DNA of 5,678 bases. Source: JBFLYE01 sp040756715 [NCBI: bacterium] (GTDB lineage Bacteria > UBA9089 > UBA9088). The position numbers and the translations under genes were made by a program. Position 1 is the first letter of the stretch. The number at the start of each line of letters is the position of its first letter. The notes below the pieces were generated by a model. That model did no database searches. It saw only the letters and a program-made list of their open reading frames with translations, and was not told where the DNA came from. The stretch lies in NCBI GenBank assembly GCA_040756715.1, contig JBFLYE010000101.1, positions 1 to 5,678 of the forward strand, in the 5' to 3' direction. Shown here piece after piece: positions 1 to 4,630 of this stretch.

Positions 1-21
1 GAAAGAGAAATGTTAAATTTT

Positions 22-148
22 GAGGGAGATTTTTTAATCACGAATGAAACGAATAACAGAAAGCGAATGGCAGCGAATGATTCGAATATTCGCTTAAATT
101 CGCTATCATTTAAGCAATTCGTTTTTATAAACAATTCGTTTCTCCCTC
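22..148. repeat. Large imperfect palindrome rich in CGAAT/ATTCG words
   Basis: The outer arms GAGGGAGA (22-29) and TCTCCCTC (141-148) are perfect complements. Between them CGAAT recurs on the left (near 41, 50, 64, 74, 83) and ATTCG on the right (near 88, 97, 118, 135), so the interior can fold as a long, interrupted hairpin. AGCGAAT (72-78) pairs with ATTCGCT (97-103), and CGAATATTCG (83-92) is a perfect palindrome at the centre. No convincing reading frame crosses it. It looks like a non-coding dispersed repeat of the kind common between genes in AT-rich uncultured bacteria, or the interior of a MITE-like element. It lies just upstream of the FIST gene and could affect its transcription or terminate an upstream gene; this last part is inference. 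Confidence 0.6.
115..141. repeat. 10-bp direct repeat CAATTCGTTT, two copies
   Basis: CAATTCGTTT occurs at 115-124 and again at 132-141, a 17-base period. Both copies lie in the right arm of the larger palindrome, so they may simply reflect its internal repetition. The spacing would also allow tandem binding of a regulator upstream of the FIST-kinase operon, but nothing else supports that. Confidence 0.4.
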
Positions 149-159
149 TTTAATGAGGA

Positions 160-194
160 AGCTTAAACACATATTAAGGAGACTAAACACATAC
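160..194 (+). repeat. Two direct copies of the TAAACACATA motif (MITE-end-like)
   Basis: AGCTTAAACACATAT (160-174) and GACTAAACACATAC (181-194) closely resemble the right terminal repeat of the 230-bp element further on (AGCTAAACACATAC, 2740-2753). The second copy ends only ten bases before the ATG of the FIST gene. If it is the right end of a related element, the left end lies outside the window, because no matching inverted copy is visible in 1-160. Nothing beyond the motif match proves mobility here. Confidence 0.5.
176..181 (+). promoter_or_regulatory. Shine-Dalgarno-like AAGGAG set too far from the FIST start
   Basis: AAGGAG is the only good Shine-Dalgarno match upstream of the ATG at 205, but 23 bases separate them, far more than the usual 5-10. 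In the FIST frame a stop (TAA, 184-186) lies between the two, with no ATG, GTG or TTG start after it until 205, so no better-placed start rescues the spacing. The motif copy at 181-194 fills this gap, so an insertion may have pushed the site away. Alternatively the gene may be translated without it. Confidence 0.3.
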
Positions 195-1362: not shown

Positions 1363-2546
1363 TGAAAAGCCTTGAGGAAAAGCTAAAACATCTTTCAATT
1401 CTATATTCAGTTGCCGCAAGTATAGGTGCTACAACCTCATCTAATGAGGTTTTAAAGGTTGTTCTGGATGAGGCAATTGAGTTTTTAAGGGCAGAAATAG
1501 GGGTTATTTTGCTGCTAAATGAGGAAAAAAATATATTTTTTATTAAGGAAAAAATAGGCTTAAAAATGGAGGGTGAAATAAGCAATGATGAATGGCTGAT
1601 AAAAGAGATAGTAAATAAAGAGGAGCCCATAATTACATCAAAAGAAACCCCTATTTTCTTACCATACAAACCAAAAACAATAATTGCCTTTCCTGTAAGG
1701 GTAAAGAATGATATAAAGGCTATTCTTTTATTGGGAAAGATCAGTTCCTCAAAAATCAGCAGGGAGGAGAAATGGATTTTAACCATTATGGTCAACAGGC
1801 TGGGCGTTGCCTTAGAAACATCAGGGCTTTATAAAGAGCTTAAAGAGGTAAGGGATGAGCTTATTGAAAAGGAGCGTCTTGCTACCCTTGCCCAGATTGC
1901 CCAGGAAGCCGCACATGAGATAAGAAATCCCCTGAATGTAATAAAGGCTGGGATGTATCTTTTAGACAAAAGGTTTAAAAGCGATGCCTGGTTTAAAGAA
2001 AAGATCAATCGGATGGAGGAGGCGGCAAATAGGGTAGAAAAATATATTGAAGAGCTTTTAGGCCTCTCAAGGCTCCCTATATTTGAAATAAAGGATGTAG
2101 ACATAAACAAGATAGTTAATGAGGCTTTGATAGAATTTGGTATAGATAGGCTTTTTGAAATAGAGGTAGTAAAAAATTTAGAAAATATTCCTATTATAAA
2201 GGGAGACCCTGATAGATTAAGGGATGCCTTTGTTAATGTGATTAGAAATTCCTACGAGGCAATAGACCACAGGGGAAAAATAGAATTTACCACAAAACCC
2301 CTTGATTTTGGGGTTGAAATAGAGGTCTCTGATACAGGGTGTGGAATAAACGAAGAACATATAAAAGATGTATTTAATCCATTCTTTACCACAAAGAGAA
2401 AGGGAACAGGGTTGGGTCTTGCTATTGTAAAGAGGATAATCGATGCACATAAGGGAGAAATAAGAATAGAGAGCAAAAAAGGGGTTGGAACAAGATTTAT
2501 TATCTTTCTTCCCTACAATAGTCGTACGTGTTTAGCTAATGCTTAA
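1362..2546 (+). CDS. Soluble GAF-domain sensor histidine kinase
   Basis: A 394-residue cytoplasmic kinase without membrane segments. Residues about 8-155 form a GAF-like sensor domain, followed by a coiled-coil linker (about 156-180). The HisKA dimerization helix has the H-box AAHEIRNPL with the phospho-acceptor at His185. The HATPase_c domain follows with the N-box around NVIRNSYEAI (Asn296), the G1 box DTGCGI (324-329), the F-box NPFFTTK (339-345) and the G2 box GTGLGLAIVKRI (348-359). It should autophosphorylate and pass phosphate to a response regulator, but none is encoded in the window. The ATG at 1362 overlaps the FIST stop (TAATG), has no Shine-Dalgarno of its own and probably relies on translational coupling. 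A TTG at 1347 in the same frame is less likely. The last seven residues and the stop are encoded by an inserted MITE, just after the catalytic domain ends, so activity is probably intact. Confidence 0.92.
   Translation: MKSLEEKLKHLSILYSVAASIGATTSSNEVLKVVLDEAIEFLRAEIGVILLLNEEKNIFFIKEKIGLKMEGEISNDEWLIKEIVNKEEPIITSKETPIFLPYKPKTIIAFPVRVKNDIKAILLLGKISSSKISREEKWILTIMVNRLGVALETSGLYKELKEVRDELIEKERLATLAQIAQEAAHEIRNPLNVIKAGMYLLDKRFKSDAWFKEKINRMEEAANRVEKYIEELLGLSRLPIFEIKDVDINKIVNEALIEFGIDRLFEIEVVKNLENIPIIKGDPDRLRDAFVNVIRNSYEAIDHRGKIEFTTKPLDFGVEIEVSDTGCGINEEHIKDVFNPFFTTKRKGTGLGLAIVKRIIDAHKGEIRIESKKGVGTRFIIFLPYNSRTCLANA
2516..2523. repeat. Left target-site duplication CAATAGTC
   Basis: Eight bases directly abutting the left terminal repeat of the element at 2524-2753, identical to the eight bases directly abutting its right end. 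In the kinase frame they cover the Tyr-Asn-Ser codons near the C-terminus, so the insertion target was inside the coding sequence. Confidence 0.85.
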
Positions 2547-2753
2547 TCTATCCTAAACTTAGGAAAGAAGATATGGAAAATTCTAAATACATAAGCACGA
2601 AATTCTAAACAAATTCAAAGCACAAAATCCAAATGACCAAAACAATGGCCGATGTTTTTGGATTTTGAACATTTGGATTTTGATATTGTTTAGGATTTTG
2701 AATTTAGAATTTATTAAAGATTGATACTTTTTATGTTGGAGCTAAACACATAC
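2524..2753. mobile_element. 230-bp MITE with 14-bp terminal inverted repeats
   Basis: The left end GTACGTGTTTAGCT (2524-2537) and the right end AGCTAAACACATAC (2740-2753) are inverted copies matching at 13 of 14 positions. Perfect 8-bp direct repeats CAATAGTC adjoin both ends, as left by transposition. The element has no coding capacity and carries a nested palindrome inside, the classic build of a MITE moved by a transposase encoded elsewhere. The 8-bp duplication and GTA-start fit several insertion-sequence families (IS66-like is one possibility), but I cannot assign a parent. It interrupts the last codons of the histidine kinase gene and now supplies its stop codon. It separates the convergent kinase and aspS genes. 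Confidence 0.85.
2578..2712. terminator. Nested palindrome inside the MITE; possible two-way terminator
   Basis: Several complementary arm pairs share roughly one centre near 2649. AAATTCTAAATAC (2578-2590) pairs with 2700-2712 at 12 of 13 positions. ATTCTAAACAA (2602-2612) pairs with 2686-2696 at 10 of 11. CAAAATCCAAATG (2623-2635) pairs perfectly with CATTTGGATTTTG (2670-2682). CCAAAAC (2637-2643) pairs with GTTTTTGG (2654-2661) with one bulge. RNA from either strand could fold into a long AT-rich hairpin. Because it lies between convergent genes, it may stop transcription from both sides. There is no clean G+C stem followed by a T-run, so termination is a guess while the palindrome itself is plain. 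Confidence 0.5.
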
Positions 2754-2761
2754 CAATAGTC
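2754..2761. repeat. Right target-site duplication CAATAGTC
   Basis: Identical in all eight positions to 2516-2523 and directly adjacent to the right terminal repeat of the MITE. Together the two copies define the insertion boundaries exactly. Confidence 0.85.
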
Positions 2762-2766
2762 TAACC

Positions 2767-2779
2767 GCTAAACATATAC
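2767..2779 (+). repeat. Extra MITE-end-like motif at the aspS stop
   Basis: GCTAAACATATAC differs by one base from the corresponding part of the MITE right end (GCTAAACACATAC, 2741-2753) and lies in the same orientation 26 bases further on, outside the duplicated target. It ends directly at the aspS stop codon. It may be a remnant of an older insertion, since no partner inverted copy is visible. It would have formed part of the kinase tail before the MITE arrived. Confidence 0.45.
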
Positions 2780-4495
2780 CTAAATCCTAATCCCCAATTC
2801 CTTTAATTGCTCCTTTGATACCTTAAATGGTGCATCGGTTAATGGGCAAACACCAGCCTGGGTCTTTGGAAAGGCAATAACATCGCGGATTGACCCTGCA
2901 TTTACCATAAGCATAAGAAGCCTATCAAGGCCAAGGGCAATACCACCGTGTGGCGGTGCACCATAGGATAAAGCCTCTAAAAGGAATGAGAATTCCTTTT
3001 CTGCCTCTTCTTTTATCCCAAGGCTTTTAAATGCCATCCTTTGAATATCTGGTTTATGGATTCTTAAAGAGCCGCCACCTATCTCGCATCCATTCAAGAC
3101 AAGGTCATAAGCCCTTGCCCTTATTTTTTCACAATTGGATGAAAACAGGGGAAAATCAGCCTCAAAGGGTAAGGTAAATGGGTGATGGGAGGGTTTAAGA
3201 TTGCCATCCTTATCCTTTTCAAAAAGGGGTGGCTCAATTATCCATAAAAAATTAAAGCCTGGCTCTGGCTTTCCAAATTTAAGCCTTAAAGCTGCTAAAG
3301 TATCGCAAACAACCCTTTCTTTATCTGCTACAATAAGGATGAAAGAAGAATCCTTTGCTTGAAATACCTCTCCTACCCTTTTAAGCTCATCCTCCTTAAA
3401 AAACTTGGCAATTGGCGAGGATAAAGAATCCCCTTCTACCTTAAACCAGCAAAGGCCAGATGCTCCAAATCCCTTTGCAAATTCAATAAGCTCGTCAATC
3501 TCTTTCCTTGAAAGATTATATCCAGCTACATTTATCCCCCTTATTGCCTCTTTTTCTTTAAATATTTTAAAATCCGAGGATGAAAGGAAAGAAAGGTCTT
3601 TTATTTTAAGCTCAAACCTTGTGTCTGGCTTATCGCTTCCGTATTCAAGCATTGCATCCCTATATTTTAGCCTGGGAAATGGTGTTTTTATAGGCTTTTT
3701 TAAAACATTCTCAAATATGTCCTTTATCAAGCCCTCAATTACATTATAAATATCCTCCTCGCTAATAAAAGATGCCTCAAGATCAAGCTGGGTGAATTCT
3801 GGTTGCCTATCTGCCCTTAAATCCTCATCCCTAAAGCACCTTGCAATTTGAAAATATTTCTCAAATCCAGCCACCATAAGGATTTGCTTGAATAATTGGG
3901 GAGATTGTGGCAAGGCATAGAATGAACCCAGAGAGAGCCTTGATGGAACAAGGAAATCCCTTGCTCCCTCGGGTGTGCTTTTTATAAGGTGTGGTGTCTC
4001 TATTTCAAAAAAGCCGTTCTTGCTCAAAAAATCCCTTATCCTTTGATAAACCTCAGATTTTAAAATGATATTCTTTTGCATAAAATCCCTCCTTAGGTCA
4101 AGGTATCTATACTTTAGCCTTAATTCCTCCTTTACCTCAGAATATTCAGCAATTTCAAAGGGAGGGGTCTTTGCTTCATTAAGGATTTCAAGGCCTAAGA
4201 CAATTACCTCTATTTCTCCTGTTTTTAAATGGGGGTTTTCAGAGCCTTTTGGCCTCCTGGAAACCCTTCCGCTTACCTTAATTACCCATTCATTCCTTAA
4301 GCTATGGGCTTTAATATGGGAGGCTCCATCTATTTCTGGATTAAAGACAAGCTGGATAATTCCAGAGATATCCCTTAGGTCTATAAAGATTAAGCCACCG
4401 TGATCCCTCCTTTTATTCACCCAGCCACAAAGGGTAACATCCAAGCCTACATCCTCAAGGCTTAATTCTGTATTTTTATGTGTTCGGTAAATCAT
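2780..4495 (-). CDS. aspS: Aspartyl-tRNA synthetase, bacterial type, probably non-discriminating
   Basis: A 571-residue class II synthetase that charges tRNA with aspartate in the cytoplasm, close to the usual bacterial length of about 590. The N-terminal OB-fold anticodon domain carries GWVNKRRDHGGLIFIDLRD (residues 24-42). Motif 1 lies around 154-170, and the flipping loop TPEGARDFLVPSR at 174-186. Motif 2 includes FRDEDLRADRQPEFTQLD (221-238). The GAD insertion domain typical of bacteria spans about 275-410. GGGSLRIH (473-480) and motif 3 HGGIALGLDRLLMLM (516-530) complete the active site. His32 followed by Gly-Gly matches enzymes that also charge tRNA(Asn), which would need GatCAB to finish Asn-tRNA. 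I chose the ATG at 4495 because it aligns with the E. coli N-terminus; an in-frame TTG at 4522 would add nine residues. No clear Shine-Dalgarno precedes either. The gene follows hemA on the same strand after a 135-base gap and converges on the histidine kinase. Confidence 0.97.
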   Translation of the reverse strand: MIYRTHKNTELSLEDVGLDVTLCGWVNKRRDHGGLIFIDLRDISGIIQLVFNPEIDGASHIKAHSLRNEWVIKVSGRVSRRPKGSENPHLKTGEIEVIVLGLEILNEAKTPPFEIAEYSEVKEELRLKYRYLDLRRDFMQKNIILKSEVYQRIRDFLSKNGFFEIETPHLIKSTPEGARDFLVPSRLSLGSFYALPQSPQLFKQILMVAGFEKYFQIARCFRDEDLRADRQPEFTQLDLEASFISEEDIYNVIEGLIKDIFENVLKKPIKTPFPRLKYRDAMLEYGSDKPDTRFELKIKDLSFLSSSDFKIFKEKEAIRGINVAGYNLSRKEIDELIEFAKGFGASGLCWFKVEGDSLSSPIAKFFKEDELKRVGEVFQAKDSSFILIVADKERVVCDTLAALRLKFGKPEPGFNFLWIIEPPLFEKDKDGNLKPSHHPFTLPFEADFPLFSSNCEKIRARAYDLVLNGCEIGGGSLRIHKPDIQRMAFKSLGIKEEAEKEFSFLLEALSYGAPPHGGIALGLDRLLMLMVNAGSIRDVIAFPKTQAGVCPLTDAPFKVSKEQLKELGIRI

Positions 4496-4630
4496 TTTTA
4501 TAGTATGCCTAGAGCTTGGCAAAAAGTAAACAATGGCTTCGCTTTCCCTTATGATTTAAGATTTATGATTTATTTAACATTTTTTAGTTTATTAGTTCTC
4601 TTGTCATAAGGTGCGTAGATTACATAAATT
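4496..4630 (-). other. hemA-aspS intergenic spacer with short direct repeat
   Basis: These 135 bases hold no gene. TTATGATTTA occurs twice (4549-4558 and 4563-4572) with a 14-base period. On the minus strand TTTACT, a 17-base spacer and CATACT (about 4504-4532), followed by TATAAAA next to the aspS ATG, loosely resemble a promoter. If real it would give a nearly leaderless aspS message, which would fit the missing Shine-Dalgarno. The match is weak. No hairpin-plus-T-run terminator for hemA is evident, so aspS may also be read from hemA. Confidence 0.3.

Follow-up and report, generated by a model that had tools for sequence, protein, structure and literature searches.

The closest described relatives of the element considered here are insertion sequences of the IS66 family, in particular ISH10B of Halobacterium salinarum and ISNpe8 of Natrinema pellirubrum, which have the left end GTACGTGTTTAGC, the right end GTACGTGTTTACC and 8-bp target duplications. 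All eight annotated IS66 elements that we fetched show inverted ends starting GTA and abutted by exact 8-bp repeats, the members other than ISH10B and ISNpe8 having GTAACTG, GTAACCG, GTAGTTG, GTACTTG or GTAATTG ends. In the available parts of the two papers, 8-bp duplications are likewise given for two IS66 entries in a table of PMC3281130 and for one IS66 entry in PMC12898284. Among single-ORF IS66 elements, ISAs21 has an 8-bp duplication and a similar end layout starting GTA, and ISDge4 (ISBst12 group) is given in the accessible part of PMC12898284 with the ends GTGACTACTCAGCA and GTAACTGCTCAGCA and an 8-bp repeat. The MITEs with which a comparison can be made, MITECca01, MITEHsal1, MITEHsal2 and those of Thiomargarita, are short and have no transposase gene, most have inverted ends and duplications, and in the available parts of the reports their parents are other elements or are not given (PMC9769881, PMC10264941, PMC4853749). 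MITEHsal2, for which duplications of 8 and 6 bp are listed in the part available, is likened by description and not by its ends. A MITE of IS66 or ISH10 type is not described in the available portions of the literature searched, which was mainly openly accessible and included work on candidate-phyla and Methanosaeta MITEs (PMC10264941, PMC3189936, PMC4853749, PMC8024623, PMC12898284, PMC9769881, PMC3281130, PMC6713103).

The window, which is the whole stretch of 5,678 nucleotides that was analysed, comes from a genome (G000) of 1,552,737 bp in 218 contigs that is 96% complete, and it was compared with relatives that include a congener, G001 (contigs of all genomes are numbered C). The features of the window that the argument needs are as follows.

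1-194, plus strand: right part of a further MITE-like family that shares the end (ACTAAACACATAC, at 182-194), truncated where the contig starts; G000:C206:1492-1725 is a relative that has both ends
2516-2523: left 8-bp target-site duplication, CAATAGTC, within the final codons of the histidine-kinase ORF (from sequence)
2524-2753, plus strand: complete MITE of 230 bp (from sequence and from other copies in G000 and G001)
2524-2537, plus strand: left terminal inverted repeat, GTACGTGTTTAGCT, the first 13 bases of which are the left end of ISH10B and ISNpe8
2524-2556, plus strand: left 33 bp, matching at 32 of 33 positions the left end of an IS66 remnant on G000:C198
2544-2546, plus strand: TAA ending the histidine-kinase ORF, inside the MITE (from the ORF list and comparison with the congener)
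2578-2712: fold-back core, a long imperfect palindrome (from repeat search, folding z and copy searches)
2737-2753, plus strand: right 17 bp, identical to the end beside an IS66 C-terminal remnant on G000:C122
2740-2753, minus strand: right terminal inverted repeat, AGCTAAACACATAC (from sequence)
2754-2761: right 8-bp target-site duplication, CAATAGTC (from sequence)
2767-2779, plus strand: end-like sequence GCTAAACATATAC, directly next to the stop codon of aspS (from sequence)

The 230-bp segment is a genuine MITE, a fresh example of an already known kind. When rechecked on the sequence, the coordinates, the 14-bp inverted ends and the flanking duplication given in a preliminary description of this DNA proved exact; the ends pair with each other at 13 of 14 positions, as the terminal inverted repeats of a MITE should be, and CAATAGTC abuts both of them with a gap of 0. 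The segment lies well within the size of a MITE (below about 600 bp, with no transposase gene) and, as had also been claimed, is non-coding, the ORF list of the window containing no ORF of 50 or more residues wholly inside 2524-2753. In particular, it does not encode a transposase with the zf-IS66 and DDE_Tnp_IS66 domains that define an autonomous IS66 element, and since it encodes no transposase at all it is an IS66 derivative rather than an IS66 itself. Its ends start GTA and are of the ISH10 type, identical at 13 of 13 positions to the left end of ISH10B and ISNpe8, and its family shares the 8-bp target duplication of IS66. Unlike it, ISH10B and ISNpe8 measure 1629 and 1650 bp, carry a full-length transposase gene and live in archaeal hosts, while ISAs21 and ISDge4 differ in having a transposase and GTAACTG-type ends instead of GTAYGTGTTTAGC. 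We therefore regard it as very probable that the segment is a miniature, non-autonomous element bounded by the terminal inverted repeats of an ISH10-type insertion sequence of the IS66 family, on the basis of the ends, the 8-bp duplications, the further copies and the occurrence of the same ends around IS66 remnants and around full-length haloarchaeal elements of the ISH10 type.

The further copies are found in both genomes. A second full copy in G000 (C193:736-965) is 97% identical and has ATTTCAAG on both flanks, and G001 holds four full copies that are 92-94% identical to the window element, one of which (C19) has the exact duplication TAAAATTT while those on C149, C136 and C45 are without one. 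The preliminary description had proposed to search for other copies and, beside each, for an 8-bp repeat of its own; copies do exist (one more in G000, four in G001), but the duplication is exact in only three of the six full-length ones, CAATAGTC, ATTTCAAG and TAAAATTT. These three differ from copy to copy, as expected of a MITE, and the presence of several copies per genome or lineage is equally typical, with two full copies in G000, four in G001 and partial copies in both. When 41 genomes were searched with the element, 15 gave matches, those beyond G000 and G001 being short and mostly over the fold-back core, which turns up in other genomes without the remainder of the element. The same description had dated the insertion as fairly recent; the intact duplication points faintly that way, but the nearest copy, at 97% identity, does not.

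The window contains many short repeats, and one might thus suppose that a chance inverted repeat has met a chance direct repeat. Against this stand the second full copy, the copies in G001 and the abundance of the end motif. The right-end 13-mer GCTAAACACATAC has 211 matches with at most one mismatch in the 1,552,737 bp of G000, as opposed to one for the reversed pattern, although 211 is an upper bound for true ends because part of the matches, those carrying TCTAAACACATAC, lie within a second, different repeat. A more cautious count gives 59 exact occurrences of GCTAAACACATAC and 21 of GCTAAACACGTAC in 1.55 Mb. The pairing of ends leads to the same answer: 206 distinct pairs of ends 60-800 bp apart, with at most five mismatches over both ends together and with pairs sharing an end counted separately (loci L001-L216), include 17 that are abutted by exact 8-bp repeats and 19 by repeats with at most one mismatch. 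When the right flank was slid by 1, 2, 3, 5, 7, 9, 12, 15, 20 or 25 bases, nine of the slides left no exact match and the tenth left a single one; when one mismatch was allowed, seven slides left none and three left one each. Coincidence is hereby refuted and keeps practically no probability, in line with the preliminary description, which had held ends and duplication to be beyond chance.

A further motif, HCTAAACACATAC (96 matches), was at first read as additional ends of the window class and was rejected when the TCTAAACACATAC rows proved internal to another repeat; in the loci examined, all but one of these rows lie about 30 bp inside the repeat TATAGTTAATTCC...ACTATA. The remaining ends border several unrelated inner sequences, and wherever two or more copies share an inner sequence the similarity breaks off sharply at the end of the motif (64 rows). 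At the start of the window, the truncated copy of another MITE-like family at positions 1-194 is 87% identical over 194 bp to the relative on G000:C206, which has both ends and no duplication. Among 12 relatives tested, five have the exact end motif (G001 69 times, G003 15, G004 12, G017 8 and G018 7) and seven do not, including G002 of the same family.

As a separate observation, G000 has many copies of a second repeat, about 240 bp long (TATAGTTAATTCCATAACGC...ACTATA), frequently at contig ends (for example C15:4260, C59:3938 and C174:14065, loci L092, L107 and L003), which holds GTATGTGTTTAG and a degenerate partner internally. This arrangement could have arisen by insertion of an IS66-type MITE into a TATA-ended one, possibly IS630-like, with subsequent spread of the composite.

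The ends of the window family are tied to IS66 by transposase remnants that lie beside them. On G000:C198 a structure of 524 bp is bounded by both ends, without a duplication, and contains an N-terminal IS66 ORF of 103 aa that begins 200 bp from the left end; on G000:C122 a C-terminal IS66 piece adjoins a right end. The 103-aa fragment is identified as IS66 through its alignment with ISH10B (37% over 84 positions), its matches to PF20042 and other Pfam profiles being below cut-off; a pattern scan for named relatives of the fragment matched 45 stretches, none of which was confirmed. Used as a query against the 19 genomes of the phylum, it gave six matches in three genomes, and all of them except G001:C186 have an end without mismatch within about 200 bp upstream and in the right orientation. 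The clearest of the structures, G001:C76:517-1014, is 498 bp long, has both ends (the right with one mismatch), an N-terminal IS66 ORF inside and the exact duplication CTTCCTTT; its history is not simple, since two further end-like sequences lie within it. C-terminal remnants stand beside an end on G000:C122, G003:C8 and G001:C44 (one mismatch) and twice in a Bacteroidetes MAG, which makes five of the 43 PF03050 matches listed; the other 38 are not beside an end on the C-terminal side, some of them being cut by contig ends. Pfam assigns PF03050 to the G003:C8 fragment and PF13005 (zf-IS66) to a sequence on G001:C139. Aligned with the ISH10B transposase, the C-terminal fragments beside the ends show identities of 50% over 68 positions and 62% over 34, and a tblastn search of plasmids with the G003:C8 piece returned 33 records, mostly haloarchaeal, which included ISH10B and ISNpe8. 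Both in the Bacteroidetes remnant on C748 (L246 1316-1328) and in ISH10B (L262 2826-2838), the stop codon TAA of the transposase lies inside the right terminal repeat. The preliminary description had also proposed to look for a full insertion sequence sharing the ends. An element of this description exists in IS66 (ISH10 group), a known type, but G000 holds remnants only: the ISH10B protein found two fragments there, at C198 and C122, and the PF03050 profile one, below cut-off. The ends are thus common to an autonomous element by way of the IS66 remnants and the full-length haloarchaeal ISH10B and ISNpe8.

The same end also occurs beyond the lineage. A scan of a named genome collection for an end, a spacer of 140 to 170 bases and a second end, with duplications as internal control, gave 25 stretches in 16 genomes, one of which is G017. 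By record title the hosts are Methanosarcinales, Methanotrichaceae (including Methanothrix), Verrucomicrobia, Phycisphaerales, Sedimentisphaerales, a Bacteroidetes, a Bathyarchaeote, a Nitrosotalea and an Aenigmatarchaeote. Both flanks are available for 24 stretches, L237 being situated at a contig end; the 8-bp duplication is exact in 12 of them, has at most one mismatch in 14 and at most two in 17, and the remaining seven show more than two mismatches. A PF03050 match is present in six of the 15 genomes other than G017 and absent from the other nine, so that the parent is missing or unsampled there.

It is at this point that another transposase family has to be considered. Duplications of 8 bp are not unique to IS66 and are also made by IS1, IS256, ISAs1, ISL3, IS1595 and others, so that the element could be a MITE of one of these, with the IS66 fragments as bystanders. 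Such an origin would suit the nine hosts with no PF03050 match and the window's phylum, in which the search gave no intact transposase that has both ends and a duplication; for the long IS66 genes of G009 and G012, the flanks fetched contain no such end at up to two mismatches. It would leave unexplained the 13-of-13 identity with the end of ISH10B and ISNpe8, the 32-of-33 match to the left end of an IS66 remnant and the IS66 ORF inside the duplication-flanked structure on G001:C76. Moreover, inspection by eye of 93 ORFs near ends in the loci examined for this, over their first 100 residues, showed no transposase-like ones other than IS66. We consider a parent outside IS66 very unlikely.

The fold-back core raises the question of a different kind of role. 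On single-strand folding it gives z of -6.2 and -6.4, it sits between convergent genes and there is one weak terminator-like match to 0.3 in shuffles, all of which would be in keeping with a regulatory or structural repeat (a terminator, a small RNA or a nucleoid site) that is no transposon and has inverted ends incidentally. The exact 8-bp duplications vary from copy to copy, and on account of them a regulatory repeat is excluded as the main account; we give it a minute probability. An RNA element was rejected for the same segment: Rfam at gathering scores has no match, none of the 81 predicted pairs shows a compensatory change among the six near-identical copies, a comparison that has little power and gives no sign of selection on RNA structure, and a strong fold is also expected of a fold-back MITE.

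Returning to the IS66-derived MITE, we propose the following course of events. Internal deletion or an exchange of ends would probably have left IS66 end sequence around an unrelated, captured fold-back core. A DDE transposase of the IS66 family, supplied from another place in the cell, would bind both ends and move the element, which would be joined to a staggered 8-bp cut, repair of which would yield CAATAGTC on either side. The dependence on a transposase from elsewhere, already drawn in the preliminary description, follows from the MITE nature and the target duplication, both of which are borne out by the ends, the duplications and the further copies.

At the present site the element entered between two genes (named from their translations) that are convergent, as aspS (ORF 2780-4522) lies downstream and runs in the direction opposite to the histidine kinase. 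The histidine-kinase ORF extends 23 bases into the MITE, and its C-terminus reads ...LPYNSRTCLANA in the window versus ...LPANA in G001; there, the homologues of the two genes are on separate contigs (C75 for the kinase, C88 for aspS), so that G001 offers no filled/empty pair of sites for comparison, and another gene is apparently next to the kinase ending in LPANA. The MITE supplies the last codons and the stop of the kinase, probably with little consequence. The end-like GCTAAACATATAC that abuts the aspS stop codon is possibly the remains of an older element that the MITE entered. On G001:C88 (L209 2121-2397) a different element of 277 bp, with the same kind of ends and the exact duplication AACTTTAC, lies about 45 bp downstream of aspS, which together with GCTAAACATATAC suggests a history of repeated insertions of this class next to aspS.

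Since only fragments of the parent were found in G000, the window family is probably no longer moving there, unless the assembly has missed an intact copy or one is brought in from elsewhere; the family looks orphaned, and multi-copy elements assemble badly. We would advance, as a tentative idea that is rather less probable than not, that the ISH10-type end GTAYGTGTTTAGC is a cross-domain currency, in which the same end surrounds unrelated, locally captured cores in archaeal hosts and in several phyla of bacteria, an IS66 transposase frequently not being found there, and the swarms are kept by occasional passing transposases and not by a resident parent.

For the histidine kinase the outcome is an altered C-terminus and a stop codon taken from the MITE, the effect of which is probably small. 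For the lineage, the element accounts for a large repeat class, of which at least 80 exact ends are present in 1.55 Mb. Several of these ends lie near those of contigs, and repeats of this kind may interrupt the assembly there. Recoverable remnants link the class with a named transposase family, and the load of such elements is high in a genome that yielded the parent only as fragments. Archaea and bacteria alike have the same end on elements of MITE size, so that one short sequence, the GTAYGTGTTTAGC-type motif, could serve to find IS66-type MITEs widely.
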